Assembly: GCF_018100785.1 (NCBI RefSeq)
Contig: NZ_JAGJEC010000001.1
Coordinates: 620,001-684,000 of the forward strand
From: Maribacter sp. MMG018
GTDB lineage: Bacteria; Bacteroidota; Bacteroidia; Flavobacteriales; Flavobacteriaceae
Direction of reading: 5' to 3'
Length of the DNA: 64,000 nucleotides
In this document: one piece after another, positions 7,143 through 14,391 of the stretch
Numbering within the stretch: position 1 is the stretch's first letter
How the letters are laid out: the number at the start of each line of letters is the position of its first letter
Program-made: the position numbers and the translations under genes
Notes under the pieces: model-generated
What the model was told of the DNA's origin: nothing
Seen by the model: only the letters and a program-made list of their open reading frames with translations
The model's database searches: none

Positions 7143-7904
7143 ATGGATATTCCTTATGAACCGGTATTGTTCGGCACCAAGGTGAATGTACACCTAGTGC
7201 TAGAATACCTAGCCTTTTTCATCGCTTTTAGGTATTATGTTTTTCTGCGGAAAAAAAGCAACGATCCCATATCGTCGAACAATCGGTTGTCCATTATTAT
7301 CGGGGCCATTTTTGGGGCCTTGCTGTTTTCACGCTTGGTCGCCTTTTTCGAAAACCCCGTATTGCACTGGCAACAAGGCTGGTTGGCCATCTTGAACAAC
7401 AAGACCATTATGGGCGGTTTGTTCGGTGGTCTCCTGGGAGTGGAACTCGCCAAAAAGATAATAGGCGAAAAACAGTCGTCTGGCGATCTGTTTACCCTAC
7501 CCATTATTTTAGGAATCATAATCGGGCGTATCGGTTGTTTTTTGTCGGGCGTAAAAGAATTTACCTACGGAAAATCCACTACTTTCTTTATGGGGATGGA
7601 TCTGGGGGACGGTGTTGCAAGACACCCCATTGCCCTATATGAGGTTGTTTTTATGGTTTTCTTGTTCATCGCCATTAAGTATGGCCAAAATAAATTCGTA
7701 CCTCGTGAAAGAGGGGCTTATTTCAAGTTTTTTATGGTCAGCTACTTTACTTTTAGATTCTTTATAGAGTTCCTAAAACCCAATACGTTTTTCATCGCAG
7801 GACTCAGTAGCATTCAGATATTATGTTTAATTTGTCTTCTTTACTATTTTAAATTCATCCGTCAAGGACTGTCCTATGCCCGAAAAAAATTACGTGTATT
7901 ATGA
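7143..7904 (+). CDS. Divergent Lgt-like (prolipoprotein diacylglyceryl transferase fold) membrane protein
   Basis: This 253-residue polytopic protein (about seven helices) aligns by eye with Lgt. It retains GRIG (Arg143 of E. coli Lgt), RHPxxLYE and FRFFIEF (Arg239 and Glu243 positions). The essential His of the Lgt SFHGG motif is Phe here (GGLFGGLLGV), and the Asn of GRxGN is Cys (GRIGC). A normal Lgt transfers diacylglycerol from phosphatidylglycerol to prolipoprotein Cys; with these losses this protein probably does something else, perhaps binding or moving a diacylglyceryl lipid. It overlaps the radical SAM gene by 29 bp, so the two are translationally linked. Confidence 0.8.
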   Translation: MDIPYEPVLFGTKVNVHLVLEYLAFFIAFRYYVFLRKKSNDPISSNNRLSIIIGAIFGALLFSRLVAFFENPVLHWQQGWLAILNNKTIMGGLFGGLLGVELAKKIIGEKQSSGDLFTLPIILGIIIGRIGCFLSGVKEFTYGKSTTFFMGMDLGDGVARHPIALYEVVFMVFLFIAIKYGQNKFVPRERGAYFKFFMVSYFTFRFFIEFLKPNTFFIAGLSSIQILCLICLLYYFKFIRQGLSYARKKLRVL

Positions 7905-9270
7905 TTTTACACTAAGCCTTTGCCCTGAGTGTTTAAGAAGGGTGGATGCCAAGATTATTTTTGAAAATGAAAAGGTATATATGCTAAAACGTTGCCCTGA
8001 GCACGGAGCCTCAAAAGTGCTTATTGCCGACGATATCGAATATTACAAGAATATCCGAAACTACAACAAAGCATCGGAGTACCCGAAAACCTTTAATACG
8101 AAAACACATTACGGTTGCCCCTACGATTGTGGCCTATGCCCCGATCACGAACAGCATTCGTGCCTAACCGTGGTGGAGTTAACGGACCGTTGCAACCTTA
8201 CCTGCCCGACTTGCTATGCCGGGTCATCGCCCACCTATGGCAGGCACCGTACATTGGCGGAGGTAAAATCGATGTTGGATGCCATCGTAAAGAACGAAGG
8301 CGAACCCGATGTTGTACAGCTTAGCGGTGGCGAGCCCACCCTACACCCCGAGTTCTTTGAAATTCTTGACTACTGTAAAACTTTGCCCATTCGCCATTTG
8401 ATGGTGAACACCAACGGTATAAAAATTGCGAAGGACTATGGGTTTGCCGAGAAACTGGCCACCTATATGCCCGATTTTGAGATTTACCTGCAGTTCGATT
8501 CTTTGAACAACGAAGTTTTACAAACCCTACGTGGGGCAGATTTGGCCGATATCCGTTTAAAGGCCCTGGAACACCTAAATAGGCTGAACCTTTCCACAAC
8601 CTTGGTGGTTACGCTTCAAAAAGGCCTTAACGACCATGAAATGGGCGAGACCATAAATTTTGCCCTTCGTCAAAAATGTGTGCGGGGAGTTACCTTTCAG
8701 CCCACACAAATTGCAGGGCGTTTAGAGAATTTTGATGTCGATGAAAATAGAATTACCCTCACCGAGGTACGTAGAAAAATACTGGAGCAGTCCCCTATTT
8801 TTGAACCCGACGACCTAATACCGGTACCCTGTAACCCCGATGCCCTGGTCATGGCCTATGCCTTAAAGATAGATGGAGAAGTAAGCCCTTTGACCCGATA
8901 TATAAATCCGGACGATCTATTGAACGAAGGAAAAAATACGATCATCTACGAGCAAGACGAGCAACTGCACGGAAAAATGATCGCCCTTTTTAGCACTGGC
9001 AATTCGGTAGAGAAAGCTTCGGAAAACCTACAGAGCATTATGTGCTGCCTACCGGAAATAGATGCCCCGGACCTGGGGTACGACAACCTTTTTCGGATCA
9101 TCATAATGCAGTTCGTAGACGCCCACAATTTTGATGTGAGGGCGATCAAAAAGTCATGTGTCCATATCGTGAACAAAGACAATAAGATAATCCCTTTTGA
9201 AACGATGAACCTTTTTTATAGGGATGATAAAATAAACCGATTGAAAGAACTACAAAACGAAATACCATGA
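7876..9270 (+). CDS. Radical SAM enzyme of the MJ0619/tetraether lipid synthase (Tes)-like family
   Basis: The SAM-cleaving cluster motif is Cys106-x3-Cys110-x2-Cys113 (TDRCNLTCPTCYAG), followed by LSGGEPTLHPEF. In front are extra Cys motifs typical of the MJ0619 group: Cys16/Cys19 (CPEC), Cys40 (CPEHG) and Cys81/85/88/96 (GCPYDCGLCPDHEQHSC), likely further metal sites. Further Cys occur late (CC near residue 390). Archaeal Tes joins lipid tails by C-C bonds, and bacterial homologues have been linked to membrane-spanning lipids. Linkage to an Lgt-like protein supports a lipid substrate, which is an inference. The length (464 residues) is near that of bacterial members. Confidence 0.85.
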   Translation: MPEKNYVYYDFTLSLCPECLRRVDAKIIFENEKVYMLKRCPEHGASKVLIADDIEYYKNIRNYNKASEYPKTFNTKTHYGCPYDCGLCPDHEQHSCLTVVELTDRCNLTCPTCYAGSSPTYGRHRTLAEVKSMLDAIVKNEGEPDVVQLSGGEPTLHPEFFEILDYCKTLPIRHLMVNTNGIKIAKDYGFAEKLATYMPDFEIYLQFDSLNNEVLQTLRGADLADIRLKALEHLNRLNLSTTLVVTLQKGLNDHEMGETINFALRQKCVRGVTFQPTQIAGRLENFDVDENRITLTEVRRKILEQSPIFEPDDLIPVPCNPDALVMAYALKIDGEVSPLTRYINPDDLLNEGKNTIIYEQDEQLHGKMIALFSTGNSVEKASENLQSIMCCLPEIDAPDLGYDNLFRIIIMQFVDAHNFDVRAIKKSCVHIVNKDNKIIPFETMNLFYRDDKINRLKELQNEIP

Positions 9271-9482
9271 TCCATTTACCCTTAGAAGTTGGAAGCCTAG
9301 ACGGCCTGTTCTTCTTCCTTTTTTTAATCATGTTCGGCCCCGCGATTCTTTTTCTTATCATCGGGGTGATCTTGTTGTTAAAACATAAAAAGAAGGCCGG
9401 TAAGATATTCGTTATTCTTTCCGGGGTCTACTTGCTTATTAGCTTAGGTGTTTGCGGCACTATTATGATGAGTATGCCATAG
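9267..9482 (+). CDS. Small membrane protein, third gene of the Lgt-like/radical SAM cluster
   Basis: This 71-residue protein has two hydrophobic helices (about 13-38 and 46-68) separated by a basic loop (KHKKKAGK). Its ATG overlaps the TGA of the radical SAM gene (ATGA), a classic coupled start. Family not recognised. The position suggests an accessory or anchoring role for the upstream enzymes, but nothing in the sequence proves this. The next gene is convergent and begins two bases later. Confidence 0.65.
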   Translation: MIHLPLEVGSLDGLFFFLFLIMFGPAILFLIIGVILLLKHKKKAGKIFVILSGVYLLISLGVCGTIMMSMP

Positions 9483-9484
9483 CC

Positions 9485-11890
9485 CTATATTCTGCTATCC
9501 TCCTCTGTGCTCTTTCTCTTTTGGTTGTCACGAATTTTCGTGTTCCCGAACTTATACCTAAAACCAAAGACAAAAAGTCTTTTTTCGCTTCTAGAGAACG
9601 TGCTGTTGTTCTGGTTTAGATAGTTTCGGGTAGAAAAAATATTACCGTCATTGAAAATATCTTCCACGCCTAAAGAAATACTGGCCTTTTTGTTCCATAT
9701 CGTCTTTCTAAAAGATAGCCCTAGCTCACTAGTAGACTCTCTTTCAGAGTTGCCATAAACAGTTGGTGCCAAATACCTAAATGTTATATCCGCAAAAAGC
9801 GATTTGTCCTTTAACAGGGTGAAATAATTATTGGCAACAAAATATGCGGTCATGATATTATTTTCCAACAAGTTTCCTGAATCCAAGTCTATAAAGCCGT
9901 TTTCTTTATAGAAATAACTCAATAAAACATAGGTGTCCCAGAAATTCGTCCATCTTTTGTTTATCCTAAAATCTATGCCATAGCTTTGGTTAGACTCTAA
10001 ATTGGTGCTTACGAACCTTAGTAAATTACTGTCGTTATCTTGAACGACTTGCTCAAAAAAGTCGTCTTTTTTAGCCAAGTAAAACAGTTCTACCGTGTAA
10101 GATTTGTCATAGGTATACCCCAAAGAAATATAGTTTCTGGTCGTTGGTTTTAGGTAGGGGTTTCCTTCCACAACGGCATTGTTGCTCTGAAAATATTGAA
10201 ACGGATTTAAATCGTCGTACCTAGGTCTTGTAATTCTACGGTAGTATTTAAGGTTTAAATCGTTCTTTTCACTTAATTCATGTTGTACCGATATGGATGG
10301 AAAAAATTCTAAATATGAATTTTTAATGGGAGCAAGGTTCGTTTCTAAATTACCTTTTGTTTCGGTATATTCTGACCTTAGGCCTACATTCAGTTGCCAT
10401 TTTTTCCAATTGTTGTTTAAACTTACATAGGCCGCCATAATACTTTCATCATATGAAAACAGGCCTTCTTCCGTAGGGTCTATTCCCGGTTGGTTACGAT
10501 CAAACCCTTCTTGTAACACCTTTGATTCTGAATTAATGCCGGCATAGCGCAATCCTGTTTCTAGTTTTGATGATTTTTTTATCGGCGTAGCATAGTCCAA
10601 TTGAAAAGTATAAAGTGCCGTTTTTTGTCCGGAATTCGTGGTAAAATCATTGGCTCCGGTAACGGTTCCGTCCAAATCAAAAAAATCGGTATTTATTTCT
10701 TGTCCCCGGTCGTAATCATAATAGGTAAAATGGTTACTAAAGGAAATTTCCGCCCCTTCTCGTTTTAACTTATGTGTCCAATCTAAATAATAAGAGGTGT
10801 TATAGACTTCATAATCGGAATTGTTGTCGGTAGAAAAACTTGAATTCAAATCTCCGTTGGGATCAGAAATTAAAGTTTGTGAGGTTATATACCTATTGGC
10901 GGGTGTAGAAAACGTGTTTATCGTAGATATACTAAGGTTGTTTCTTGCGTTGATCCGATAATCAAAAAATGCATTTACATTATGGTGTTTGCCTTTAGAA
11001 ACGGTGCTCTGTTCAGCGGTCCATATTTCATCAACAACATTGTTTTCAAAAAAATTGGTGATATCCGTATATCGGTTCAATCTTTTGTCGGCCCTAAAAC
11101 TGTAGGTAATGGAAAAATCGGTCTTTTCTCCCTTAAAAAAATGGTCGGTGCCCAGCATATGTTTTGCAAACACCCCTTGGGTATATCGGTTATAGACAGA
11201 TCCATTATAACCTGCGATCAGGTTTTTCTTCATTTTTATATCTAACAACATTCCGCCTTCGGCACTATATTTTGCCGGAGGGTTAAGAACCACTTCTACC
11301 GCCTCTACATTGCTTGCAGAGCTTCCCGATAGTAGGTTAATAATATCCTCTTGGGGAATGTTCACTTTTTTGCCGTTGATCATTACCCCAATATTGGTAC
11401 TGCCCTTTATGCTTATCTTGTCGTTTACGATAATTACGCCCGGTGTTCTCTTTACAACGCTCCAAATATCGCTATCGGAAAGAGAGGTGTTCTCTATATT
11501 GAAAACCACACGGTCCGCCTTTTGTTCTATTGTAGGTTTTTTGTAGCTCACCACTACCTCGTCTAAAACCTCTTCGGTCTGTTCTATGATCAATCTGTCG
11601 ACATCAATATCGGAGGTAACCGAAATTTTTTTTATTACAGAAAAGTTGTCCAAATAACTCGCGGACAACAAATAGGTTCCTTTTTCAACATTGTTCAACT
11701 CAAAAAAACCTTCTTCGTTCGTGGCCGTACCGGCCAGCAAAACGGTATCGGTAGATTGAAGCAAAACATTCGCAAAAATTAAAGGTTGATCATTAGAATC
11801 TAAAACTCTTCCCTTAACACTAAACTCTTGGGCCTTAGCAAAGGAAAACAACAATGTAAAAATTAAAAATAAACTAAAATTCCTGTTCAT
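9485..11890 (-). CDS. Outer-membrane beta-barrel protein with carboxypeptidase-regulatory domain (paralogue 1)
   Basis: The domains of this 801-residue protein are, in order, a signal peptide ending FAKAQ, a carboxypeptidase-regulatory-like beta domain (about 22-105, VKGRVLDSNDQPLIFANVLL), a TonB-receptor-like plug (about 115-215, ending NPPAKYSAEGGMLLDI), and a long 'outer membrane beta-barrel family' (OMP_b-brl_3) barrel that ends in a Phe/Tyr-rich strand. A SusD partner and regulators are absent, so this is not a standard polysaccharide locus. The substrate is unknown; OMP_b-brl_3 members may transport iron chelates or other small ligands. It lies 92 bp after a paralogue on the same strand. 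Confidence 0.85.
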   Translation of the reverse strand: MNRNFSLFLIFTLLFSFAKAQEFSVKGRVLDSNDQPLIFANVLLQSTDTVLLAGTATNEEGFFELNNVEKGTYLLSASYLDNFSVIKKISVTSDIDVDRLIIEQTEEVLDEVVVSYKKPTIEQKADRVVFNIENTSLSDSDIWSVVKRTPGVIIVNDKISIKGSTNIGVMINGKKVNIPQEDIINLLSGSSASNVEAVEVVLNPPAKYSAEGGMLLDIKMKKNLIAGYNGSVYNRYTQGVFAKHMLGTDHFFKGEKTDFSITYSFRADKRLNRYTDITNFFENNVVDEIWTAEQSTVSKGKHHNVNAFFDYRINARNNLSISTINTFSTPANRYITSQTLISDPNGDLNSSFSTDNNSDYEVYNTSYYLDWTHKLKREGAEISFSNHFTYYDYDRGQEINTDFFDLDGTVTGANDFTTNSGQKTALYTFQLDYATPIKKSSKLETGLRYAGINSESKVLQEGFDRNQPGIDPTEEGLFSYDESIMAAYVSLNNNWKKWQLNVGLRSEYTETKGNLETNLAPIKNSYLEFFPSISVQHELSEKNDLNLKYYRRITRPRYDDLNPFQYFQSNNAVVEGNPYLKPTTRNYISLGYTYDKSYTVELFYLAKKDDFFEQVVQDNDSNLLRFVSTNLESNQSYGIDFRINKRWTNFWDTYVLLSYFYKENGFIDLDSGNLLENNIMTAYFVANNYFTLLKDKSLFADITFRYLAPTVYGNSERESTSELGLSFRKTIWNKKASISLGVEDIFNDGNIFSTRNYLNQNNSTFSRSEKRLFVFGFRYKFGNTKIRDNQKRKSTEEDSRI

Positions 11891-11982
11891 AAATTAATAG
11901 AAGGTAAAGGCCTAAAAATATAAAATATTCGGAAATTACTTACGAAAAAATGTAACTGATATAGTACAAAAAAGGAACGGGT

Positions 11983-14391
11983 CTATTCTGATTGCAAACG
12001 GTCTCTTTCTTCTTTCTCTATTTCTCGTTTGTTGTCGTCCAGCCTAAAGTTTCCAAAATTATAGGTAAACCCAATTCGGAAGTTTTGGGTTTCTTCTACT
12101 GACTTAAAGGCATTGTTCTGGTTTAAGTATTTAGAGGTATTCCATGGGTTGGCCCCGCCTAAAATATCATTTACCGACAAACTGATCTGAGCCCTTCTGT
12201 TCCATAAAGATTTTTGTAGACCAAGGGTAAGGTTTGTTGTTTCGTTCTGTTTATTGGAGCCTGCCAAAAAACCGGACAGGTACGTAAGCCCCAATTCTCC
12301 CTTAAACGTGCCGTCTTGCGACAGTGTTACGTAATTGGTGAGATCCAAGTAAAAACCGTTGACCTCATTTTTTGCAGATACTTCGTCGCTCTCCAAGGCC
12401 AAAAAGGTCTCGTCTTCATGAAAAATGGAAATATAGCTATAGAGATACCAATAATTGGTGATAGATTTTCCATAATTAAAATCGAAACCATACGACGTGC
12501 TGCCCAGTACATTCTGCGAGCTGTCTATTAGCACCAGGTTATCGTTGTCTTGAAAAGACAACGTAGAAATATAGTTGCCATTGTCCCGGTAGTAAAAGTC
12601 GAAGAAATATTCTTGGTTCAGGGTATAGTTAAGATTAAAGTTGTTACTGAAACTTGGCTGTAAATAAGGGTTTCCTTCATAAAAAATATTCTCGCTTATA
12701 AAGGTTTTAAAGGGGTTTAGGTCTTCATATCTGGGGCGCTTTACTTTTCTTGAATAATCAAAGGACAAACTGTGGTTTTCATTTATGGAATGAAGTAAAT
12801 AAAAAGAGGGAAACAGTTCAAAATAGTCCAAATTGTTAACCTCGGAAAGTACCAAGGAGTTTCCCGAGCTTTGTGTCTGTTCTGCCCTAAGACCGGCCTT
12901 TACGCTCCATTTTTCCCAATCTTTGGAAAAACTCATATAGGCCGCATAAACATCTTCGTCGTACAGGTAATTGTCCGATAGATCAGAAACATATTCCCTT
13001 CCATTGTTCTGGGTATAAAAATTAAGCAGGCTTTTAGAATTTATAAGAGATGTTTTTATACCTGCCTCAATACCGACTTCTCCCAACTGGCCACTATAGT
13101 CTACCTGTGCCGTAATAATTTCAATGTCTTGCTCTTCATCCGTAAAAAAACCATAATCACGTATAAATGTGCCGTCGGGTCTAAAATAATCGGATCTGGC
13201 ATCTTGTGTTCTCGACTGATCAAAATTGGTGTAATGCCCATTAATACTAATAGATCCGTTCTCTTTAAAATAATGTTTAAAGGTAAGATCCCCAGAAATG
13301 TTGTTTTTGGCCTCGTCCAACTTACTGGCCGTAGTAGAAGTAGAATCTAGCAAACCTTGCCCGTTTACCATAGTGGTGTACTGAAAATTATCATATTCCC
13401 TGTCCGGAGATATCTGTGCATTCGATGTTAGGTTTATTGTATTTCTATCATCAAACTCATAATCTACCACGATTCCCGCATTATGGGTCTTAAACCTATT
13501 GGTCTTATCAAAATCGGTATTCCATCTAGAAAAAATACCGTCATCGTTCATGAAATTGGTTTCATTTATAAGGTCTTTAAAGTCTTTTCTGGGGGCATAT
13601 GAATAGCTAGCATTAAGGTTTAGCTTTTTTGTTTTATAAAAGTGCGAGGTGCCAAAATTAAATTTAGAAAAAACACCTTGTGTGTAATTGGTGCTAATGT
13701 TGCCTTTATACCCAAGAGAAATGTTTTTGCTGGTAACAATGTTCAACACCGCACCACCCTCTGCATCATACTTTGCCGGTGGATTGTTTATTACTTCTAT
13801 GGACTTTATGTTTTCCCCTTGGTAATTTTCCAAAAGGCTTCTTATTTCTTCTGAAGAAAGCTGAACCTTACGGTCATTTATATAAACAACAGCTGGTTGG
13901 TTTCTTATCTGTAATTCGTCTTGCAAGGTTATTACACCTGGGGTCTGGCTTAAGATATCCCAAGAATTGCTTTGTGAAAGCACGGAGTTTTCTACATTGA
14001 ACACCAAACGGTCTACCTTACGCTCTACCTTTGGCCTATTGCTGAAAACTACGACCTCATCCAGTTCTTCTACCTGTTGCGGAATAACCAAGGCCCCTAT
14101 TTTGATATCTTTATCTATATCCAAAGGAAGGTCTTTAGAAACTTGCCCAATATAACTTGCCTTTAACAAGTAAAGCCCCGGTTGAATATTCTCGATAACA
14201 AATGCACCGTTCTCATCGGCCGAAGAACCGTTTACCATAGTACCGTCTTCGGAATCGAGTAGAAAAGCCGAAGCAAACGGAATAGGGGTTCCGGACTCGT
14301 CCTTAATAGTTCCGGAGAGCTGAAAAGACTGACACATCGCTTCTTGAAAAAATCCTATAGCGATGATGAAAAATAGGAGTAATGGCCTCAC
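11983..14391 (-). CDS. Outer-membrane beta-barrel protein with carboxypeptidase-regulatory domain (paralogue 2)
   Basis: This 802-residue protein has the same layout as its downstream neighbour: signal peptide ending EAMCQ, regulatory beta domain (about 23-105), plug with VDRLVFNVENSVL, TPGVI and NNPPAKYDAEGGAVLNI, then barrel with NYTQGVFSKFNFGTSHFYK, matching NRYTQGVFAKHMLGTDHFFK in the other copy. The pair is clearly a tandem duplication that has diverged. The C-termini differ after the last strand (IEKEERDRLQSE here). The first copy transcribed is this one, and the two may share a promoter upstream of 14391, although none is obvious. Confidence 0.85.
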   Translation of the reverse strand: MRPLLLFFIIAIGFFQEAMCQSFQLSGTIKDESGTPIPFASAFLLDSEDGTMVNGSSADENGAFVIENIQPGLYLLKASYIGQVSKDLPLDIDKDIKIGALVIPQQVEELDEVVVFSNRPKVERKVDRLVFNVENSVLSQSNSWDILSQTPGVITLQDELQIRNQPAVVYINDRKVQLSSEEIRSLLENYQGENIKSIEVINNPPAKYDAEGGAVLNIVTSKNISLGYKGNISTNYTQGVFSKFNFGTSHFYKTKKLNLNASYSYAPRKDFKDLINETNFMNDDGIFSRWNTDFDKTNRFKTHNAGIVVDYEFDDRNTINLTSNAQISPDREYDNFQYTTMVNGQGLLDSTSTTASKLDEAKNNISGDLTFKHYFKENGSISINGHYTNFDQSRTQDARSDYFRPDGTFIRDYGFFTDEEQDIEIITAQVDYSGQLGEVGIEAGIKTSLINSKSLLNFYTQNNGREYVSDLSDNYLYDEDVYAAYMSFSKDWEKWSVKAGLRAEQTQSSGNSLVLSEVNNLDYFELFPSFYLLHSINENHSLSFDYSRKVKRPRYEDLNPFKTFISENIFYEGNPYLQPSFSNNFNLNYTLNQEYFFDFYYRDNGNYISTLSFQDNDNLVLIDSSQNVLGSTSYGFDFNYGKSITNYWYLYSYISIFHEDETFLALESDEVSAKNEVNGFYLDLTNYVTLSQDGTFKGELGLTYLSGFLAGSNKQNETTNLTLGLQKSLWNRRAQISLSVNDILGGANPWNTSKYLNQNNAFKSVEETQNFRIGFTYNFGNFRLDDNKREIEKEERDRLQSE

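Follow-up and report, generated by a model that had tools for sequence, protein, structure and literature searches.

A conserved trio of an Lgt-like protein, a Tes-fold radical SAM enzyme and a small cysteine-bearing membrane protein: probably a bacterial lipid-modifying system

Which chemistry could unite a relative of the diacylglyceryl transferase Lgt, a radical S-adenosylmethionine (SAM) enzyme resembling the archaeal tail-coupling enzyme Tes, and a tiny membrane protein? The question is raised by a stretch of 64,000 nucleotides from Maribacter sp. MMG018 (NCBI RefSeq assembly GCF_018100785.1, contig NZ_JAGJEC010000001.1, positions 620,001 to 684,000 of the forward strand), hereafter the window. 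In its list of open reading frames (ORFs), three consecutive plus-strand ORFs overlap by 29 and 4 base pairs (bp), the latter as ATGA (Table 1). A first-pass annotation had read these overlaps as a sign of tight co-expression and had suggested a lipid-tail modification system; the coordinates were confirmed. The trio is one functional unit, and it probably forms an undescribed lipid-modifying system. Some role in lipid tails or in the lipid of a lipoprotein, taken in total, can be held with moderate confidence. The specific model preferred here, to which a probability of roughly one in three is given, is that the Lgt-like protein would lipidate a conserved cysteine of the small protein, and that the radical SAM enzyme would alter acyl tails.

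Conservation of the three genes as a unit

A scan of 84,980 species, each represented by a single genome, returned at least 569 stretches encoding a relative of the radical SAM protein. The best 80 of these, all with Bacteroidota names, are referred to as the named loci. Of the 80, 78 carry the Lgt-like gene upstream of the radical SAM gene, overlapping it in 60, lying within 510 bp in 14 and at 1.5–3.9 kb in 4 (L081, L087, L089 and L134). The other two loci are cut contigs, with 72 and 0 bases ahead of the radical SAM match, and in L106 the Lgt-like frame is broken into two. Genes inserted between the two enzyme genes were seen in few loci and, by eye, show no obvious common theme. The small gene was detected by BLAST in 74 of the 80 named loci. 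When neighbouring genes were clustered over 81 neighbourhoods, the Lgt-like family was present in 79 and the small family in 76, versus 47 and 46 for the next gene families, and this difference argues that the association is more than chance.

By using an even draw of 395 Bacteroidota genomes, with E values up to 1e-40 for the radical SAM gene and up to 1e-25 for the Lgt-like gene, it was found that the former occurs in 34 genomes, the latter in 32 and both in 31 (Fisher p 1.7e-41, a value that ignores shared descent). Among the three genomes with the radical SAM gene only, two (L144, L145) carry Tes-type proteins and the third (L143) has a weaker adjoining Lgt-like gene. Two genomes, G092 and G328, hold both genes, yet on separate contigs. 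Pairwise identities of the Lgt-like and radical SAM proteins across 19 genomes or replicons correlate with a coefficient of 0.87, a figure obtained for this one gene pair; shared descent by itself gives some correlation. Phyla beyond Bacteroidota were sampled via a plasmid collection, in which distant pairs were found on one Nonomuraea and one Mycobacterium branderi replicon (Actinomycetota). The first-pass annotation had made its proposal depend on a neighbourhood conserved among relatives, and the counts of 78 in 80 loci and 31 in 395 genomes agree with it. It had remarked that it knew of no described function for the trio in Flavobacteriia; the pairing is not special to that class, reaching across Bacteroidota and into Actinomycetota.

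The same counts bear on the view that the Lgt-like protein is a spare transferase for ordinary lipoproteins, while the radical SAM gene has an unrelated function. Such a role would agree with the retention of most Lgt pocket residues, described below, and with the one genome that holds an Lgt-like gene without its partner. However, the two genes co-occur in 31 genomes against 1 with the Lgt-like gene only and 3 with the radical SAM gene only, the two proteins show similar branching, and at least one second LGT homologue was present in all 23 searched genomes carrying the Lgt-like gene. This search covered 25 of the 35 genomes carrying either gene, and the two Tes-type genomes have one LGT homologue each. 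The spare-transferase view is considered very improbable.

The radical SAM enzyme and its relation to Tes

The radical SAM protein matches the Pfam families Radical_SAM (E 4.5e-26) and Zn_ribbon_HMPTM (E 1.3e-20) and has no predicted membrane helix. Its closest solved structure by sequence is MJ0619, the GDGT-MAS/Tes enzyme (E 2.7e-69), and the same structure (7tol) was the best match of the predicted model, with a Z score of 35.6 over 395 residues at 30% identity. The model itself is of moderate quality (mean predicted local distance difference test score, pLDDT, 72.8; poor at residues 64–80, 107–120 and 348–399). The comparison of predicted structure with archaeal Tes that the first-pass annotation had called for thus points to a common fold, and the MJ0619/Tes pattern of N-terminal cysteine motifs that it had noticed is borne out by alignment. 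Both metal motifs, CX2C..CX2H and CX3CX2C with a His, are present together with the radical SAM site motif, and the accessible text of the structural report describes the two N-terminal motifs for GDGT-MAS (PMC9433317). The same text gives GDGT-MAS three [Fe4S4] clusters and one rubredoxin-like iron, places the C-terminal cluster near the lipid tail as a participant in the reaction, and interprets a density as a bound phospholipid from E. coli (PMC9433317).

The C-terminal part of the protein has diverged. In the Tes-group rows of the radical SAM tree, namely MJ0619, L144 and L145, three shared C-terminal cysteines align at residues 427, 428 and 442 of the window protein, which keeps 428 only; by their position, these three would be the ligands of the Tes cluster. 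A fourth MJ0619 cysteine (aligned at residue 410) is absent from L144 and L145 too. Tes Met439 is kept in the window protein and Tyr459 is replaced by Ile. In turn, C319 is common to the window protein and 28 other non-Tes rows, and the pair C390-C391 is common to the window's own clade. With C428 kept and these other cysteines present, the C-terminal cluster may persist with changed ligands. The Lgt-partnered proteins of L143 and of the two actinobacterial rows (L191 and L192) show the opposite mix to the window's clade: their N-terminal cluster cysteines are lost, and those at the C-terminal end remain.

Simple membership of Tes was rejected, since the protein scores 286.7 bits against the NCBIfam Tes cut-off of 450, falls outside the Tes clade and has only one of the three C-terminal cysteines shared by the Tes-group rows. 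In the tree, MJ0619, L144 and L145 stand on one side of a branch with support of 100/99, with the window protein outside, and another branch, of modest support (94/78), has on one side the 26 Lgt-partnered rows, of which two are unlinked; long branches were flagged in this tree. L144 (7864–9321) scores 493.8 on the Tes model, above the cut-off, and L145 scores 441.9, just below it. The genome of L144 comes from the Bacteroidota draw, and no Lgt-like gene was found nearby or elsewhere in it. The best NCBIfam model of the window enzyme is the radical SAM (seleno)protein TrsS (NF045646), and simple TrsS membership was likewise rejected, the score of 328.2 bits lying under the curated cut-off of 490. 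Neither a lipid role nor a substrate of TrsS was found in the literature accessible in part. The TrsS-best relatives from two halobacteria and one Mycolicibacterium, also below cut-off, adjoin a methyltransferase gene and not an Lgt-like gene; in L188, L189 and L190 (Mycolicibacterium and halobacterial replicons) the Tes/TrsS-like radical SAM gene is directly followed by the methyltransferase gene. A defence role of the viperin type was also rejected, as only weak pVip matches were obtained (E 1.7e-13 and 4.4e-12, residues 101–225).

Taken as a whole, the window enzyme resembles GDGT-MAS/Tes in overall fold, rubredoxin-like site, N-terminal auxiliary cluster motif and radical SAM motif, and differs from it by its score under the cut-off, its place outside the clade, the loss of two C-terminal cysteines, the gain of C319 and C390-C391, and its Lgt-like partner. 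Given this placement outside the Tes clade and a best model, TrsS, for which the literature accessible in part yielded no lipid role, the joining of tails by C-C bonds as in Tes, which the first-pass annotation had brought forward, is not a safe transfer of function.

A lipid-only pathway has to be weighed at this point. In it, the radical SAM enzyme would make membrane-spanning or coupled glycerolipids as Tes or Mss (a bacterial membrane-spanning lipid synthase) do, the Lgt-like protein would do no more than bind and present phospholipid, and the small protein would be a membrane scaffold or an activator. The conserved Tes fold and the retained Lgt pocket residues would suit such a pathway, as would the invariant R219, Q275 and R282, which by reading of the alignments match Arg210, Gln268 and Arg275 of Tes, described as SAM-site or gating residues in the accessible text on that enzyme (PMC9433317). 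In addition, bacterial Tes homologues have been proposed for such lipids, according to the part of the article at hand (PMC8941075). On the other hand, not all C-terminal cysteines of the Tes group remain, and such a pathway leaves the persistence of G-x-Cys in the small proteins unexplained. Reports of such lipids from these organisms were not found in a thinly covered literature, where the accessible part of one article names diabolic acid only in references to Acidobacteria (PMC10025309). A purely lipid-directed pathway is considered possible, if rather unlikely.

The Lgt-like protein and the cysteine of the small protein

The Lgt-like protein matches Pfam LGT with E 7.9e-22 and 78.2 bits, above the gathering score of 24.9. 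Its predicted model (mean pLDDT 80.7) matches E. coli Lgt (5azb) with a Z score of 14.5, the next chain listed reaching 7.2, so that the Lgt fold assigned to this partner by the first-pass annotation holds. At 43.7 bits, it misses the cut-off of 118.9 of the NCBIfam lgt equivalog TIGR00544, on which the other Lgt of the window's genome scores 135.8 bits. A tree of 54 LGT-family proteins places the 27 Lgt-like ones, including two unlinked proteins and the orphan from genome G075, in a group (99/99) separate from 13 Asn-type and 14 Cys-type homologues.

In E. coli Lgt, the residues His103, Arg143, Asn146, Tyr235 and Arg239 matter, as stated in the accessible parts of two studies (PMC4728403, PMC8689077). 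The HGG motif and Asn146 are held essential in this enzyme. An alignment of 94 Lgt-like proteins was inspected at these positions (75 close and 19 distant; 5 of 80 close rows were too short and were left out). The equivalents of R143, E202, Y235 and R239 are present in all 94 and that of E243 in 92, the other two having Asp. HG[GA] occurs in none, and the Asn146 position is Cys in all 94 (75/75 close, 19/19 distant). The protein is like Lgt in fold and in the R143, E202, Y235, R239 and E243 positions, and differs by its separate tree group, its score under TIGR00544, its lack of HGG, the Cys at N146 and the linkage to a radical SAM gene.

From the loss of His103 and Asn146 it could be supposed that the Lgt-like protein is a dead transferase. 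This was rejected by means of 28 other LGT homologues from the same genomes, chosen by position alone: 14 have the Cys and no HGG, 13 have Asn with HGG or HGA, and one (L200) was unread. Half of the reference proteins thus lack both features as well, and their loss does not exclude transferase activity, so the Lgt-like protein may yet be an active enzyme. The 14 Bacteroidota homologues without HGG (L206, L209, L210, L213–L221, L223 and L226) carry GR-G-Cys, mostly followed by [AS]GDGD. In genome G358, a Cys-type, HGG-less homologue is the only LGT match, and being single it is presumably the working Lgt of that genome.

The small protein consists of hydrophobic helices, has no Pfam or NCBIfam match above cut-off, and is the only match of its kind in its genome. 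Its Cys63 is invariant in the 78 aligned family members and is the most constant column printed for the C-terminal part. It lies where the last helix ends, 16 residues past the last Lys, in the order of basic stretch, hydrophobic stretch and G-x-Cys. Membrane helices are oriented by the positive-inside rule, which predicts that Cys63 is at the outer face. Lipoprotein precursors such as Lpp have a signal peptide and lipobox, in which a basic stretch and about 15–20 hydrophobic residues precede the Cys. The small protein is alike in its basic stretch, hydrophobic run and Cys at the predicted outer face, and it differs in the C-terminal position of the motif and in the residue at position -1. The usual lipobox has Gly, Ala or Ser before the Cys; this was not found in the window protein, where the residue is Val, and Ala or Ser was found in only 3 of 101 copies from the named loci. 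Some distant small proteins do carry Ala, Ser or Gly there. With Ile or Val mostly before the Cys, the motif is lipobox-like rather than canonical, and signal peptidase II would not be expected to cleave it.

To describe the family, a spacing rule was used, devised after the sequences had been seen: a Cys 4–14 residues from the end and 14–24 past the last Lys or Arg, behind a hydrophobic stretch. A rule-fitting G-x-C hairpin ORF lies downstream of the radical SAM gene in all 80 named loci, with 101 copies in total, two or three of them in 20 loci, and Gly at -2 in 97. Elsewhere in the same loci the rule fits 15 of 336 two-helix ORFs, 6 of the 15 being the Lgt-like gene. Among 22 distant loci, 14 have 19 adjoining small ORFs of at least two helices, each with the Cys, and three more (L141, L143 and L191) yielded one small protein each in a wider look, picked by eye. 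In total, 22 distant small proteins come from 17 of the 22 loci, and 20 of them fit the spacing rule. In Nonomuraea the small protein is the end of a 368-residue protein. In G328 the small gene accompanies the radical SAM gene (L147), and in G092 neither location showed one.

Simply counting Cys within the last 25 residues proved a poor test, as it also picked 36 of 74 other two-helix small ORFs. The stricter rule fitted 18 of these 74, 17 lying downstream of the radical SAM gene and 1 overlapping its 3' end; 7 of 24 ORFs downstream of the radical SAM gene do not fit it. Extra G-x-Cys hairpin ORFs, two of them longer (108 and 111 residues), were seen downstream of the radical SAM gene in L077, L100, L107 and L109.

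A substrate-like small protein adjoining the enzyme, often duplicated as just described, could suggest that the radical SAM enzyme is protein-directed, as many members of its superfamily are, for example installing a thioether at G-x-Cys, with the Lgt-like protein processing or anchoring the product. A best NCBIfam model, TrsS, with no substrate found in the literature accessible in part would also leave room for it. However, prediction places the Cys at the outer face and gives the enzyme no membrane helix, and both fold and N-terminal sites follow Tes and not a SPASM peptide maturase. Modification of the peptide is regarded as unlikely.

A proposed reaction and its meaning

In the preferred model, the tiny protein would be an inner-membrane hairpin that resembles an uncleaved lipoprotein signal peptide and presents its G-x-Cys at the outer face. 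The dedicated Lgt-like enzyme would bind a glycerophospholipid, its putative substrate, in the conserved Arg/Tyr/Arg pocket and move the diacylglyceryl group onto that candidate acceptor Cys. The Tes-fold radical SAM enzyme would then abstract an acyl-tail hydrogen, most likely coupling the tail to another tail or to sulfur, which would yield a special lipid, borne by a small lipidated protein or assembled around it. Three lines converge on lipid chemistry, namely an Lgt fold, an acceptor-like Cys and a tail-joining fold, found together over two phyla. The earlier idea of a special lipoprotein lipid gains support from the invariant lipobox-like Cys. In a bolder version, a dedicated Lgt would place diacylglycerol on the uncleaved, C-terminal lipobox-like Cys and the radical SAM enzyme with its rewired auxiliary cluster would weld the tail to another lipid, giving ordinary bacteria a protein-anchored, possibly membrane-spanning lipid; this is considered quite unlikely.

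Several points weigh against lipidation of the small protein followed by tail chemistry. The main unsolved one is geometric: the Lgt pocket probably opens outward and no membrane helix is predicted for the radical SAM protein, so that the two steps would face opposite sides of the membrane. In 80 of 101 copies from the named loci, Ile or Val precedes the Cys, unlike in the usual lipobox, and the spacing rule was drawn up after the fact. Five of the 22 distant loci (L149, L156, which is a cut contig, L195, L196 and L197) showed no small protein. The Tes-group cysteines aligned at residues 427 and 442 are absent from the main clade of the window protein, and G075, alone among the 395 genomes, has an Lgt-like gene without a radical SAM match.

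Among related systems, Zeng and others described 456 bacterial Tes homologues and suggested that they synthesize branched glycerol dialkyl glycerol tetraethers (brGDGT), as the accessible text states (Zeng et al., 2022; PMC8941075); the word Lgt is absent from its main text. A 2025 paper, available in part, holds the proposed activity of bacterial Tes homologues to be unconfirmed (PMC11868695). Mss was reported, in the accessible portion of the source, to have the catalytic architecture of Tes, and it can be likened to the window enzyme by this description only (PMC13274423). No Lgt/Tes pairing or trio was found described in the literature searched, which was accessible in part and leaves most subscription papers and preprints outside its coverage. 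What is new here is the small protein's signal-peptide-like helix, with a G-x-Cys predicted at the outer face. With a conserved partner enzyme and a candidate acceptor Cys in hand, the open question on bacterial Tes homologues becomes directly testable. If the proposal is true, it would link the biogenesis of lipoproteins with radical lipid chemistry in bacteria that can be cultured, and it could bear on the makers of membrane-spanning lipids outside archaea.

Beyond the trio, two adjoining large minus-strand ORFs (801 and 802 residues) occupy window positions 9485–14391 and, by eye, look like paralogous outer-membrane beta-barrel proteins.

Table 1. Features of the trio, in window coordinates.
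Feature	Position	Strand	Basis
Lgt-like protein with multiple transmembrane helices, 253 residues, own branch of the LGT family	7143..7904	+	Pfam LGT, fold, tree
GRIGC motif G128-C132 of the Lgt-like protein; Arg equals E. coli Lgt R143, Cys at N146	7524..7538	+	Alignment
29-bp overlap between the frames of the Lgt-like and radical SAM genes	7876..7904	+	ORF coordinates
Tes/TrsS-superfamily radical SAM enzyme, 464 residues	7876..9270	+	Family profiles, tree, model fold
Radical SAM protein, rubredoxin-like site C16x2C19...C40x2H43	7921..8004	+	Alignments; motif named in accessible text of PMC9433317
Radical SAM protein, N-terminal auxiliary cluster C81x3C85x2C88 with H91	8116..8148	+	Alignments
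Radical SAM cluster C106x3C110x2C113	8191..8214	+	Pfam match, alignment
Radical SAM protein, C319	8830..8832	+	In 29 non-Tes rows, not in 3 Tes-group rows of the tree alignment
Radical SAM protein, pair C390-C391 found in the main clade; putative ligands of a rewired C-terminal cluster	9043..9048	+	Alignments
Radical SAM protein, C428, sole one kept of 3 C-terminal Cys common to Tes-group rows	9157..9159	+	Alignment
ATGA overlap, radical SAM stop and small-protein start	9267..9270	+	ORF coordinates
Tiny hairpin membrane protein, 71 residues	9267..9482	+	ORF list, predicted helices
Last helix of the small protein, signal-peptide-like: K39..K46, 16 residues, G61-V62-C63	9381..9455	+	Family alignment, motif rule

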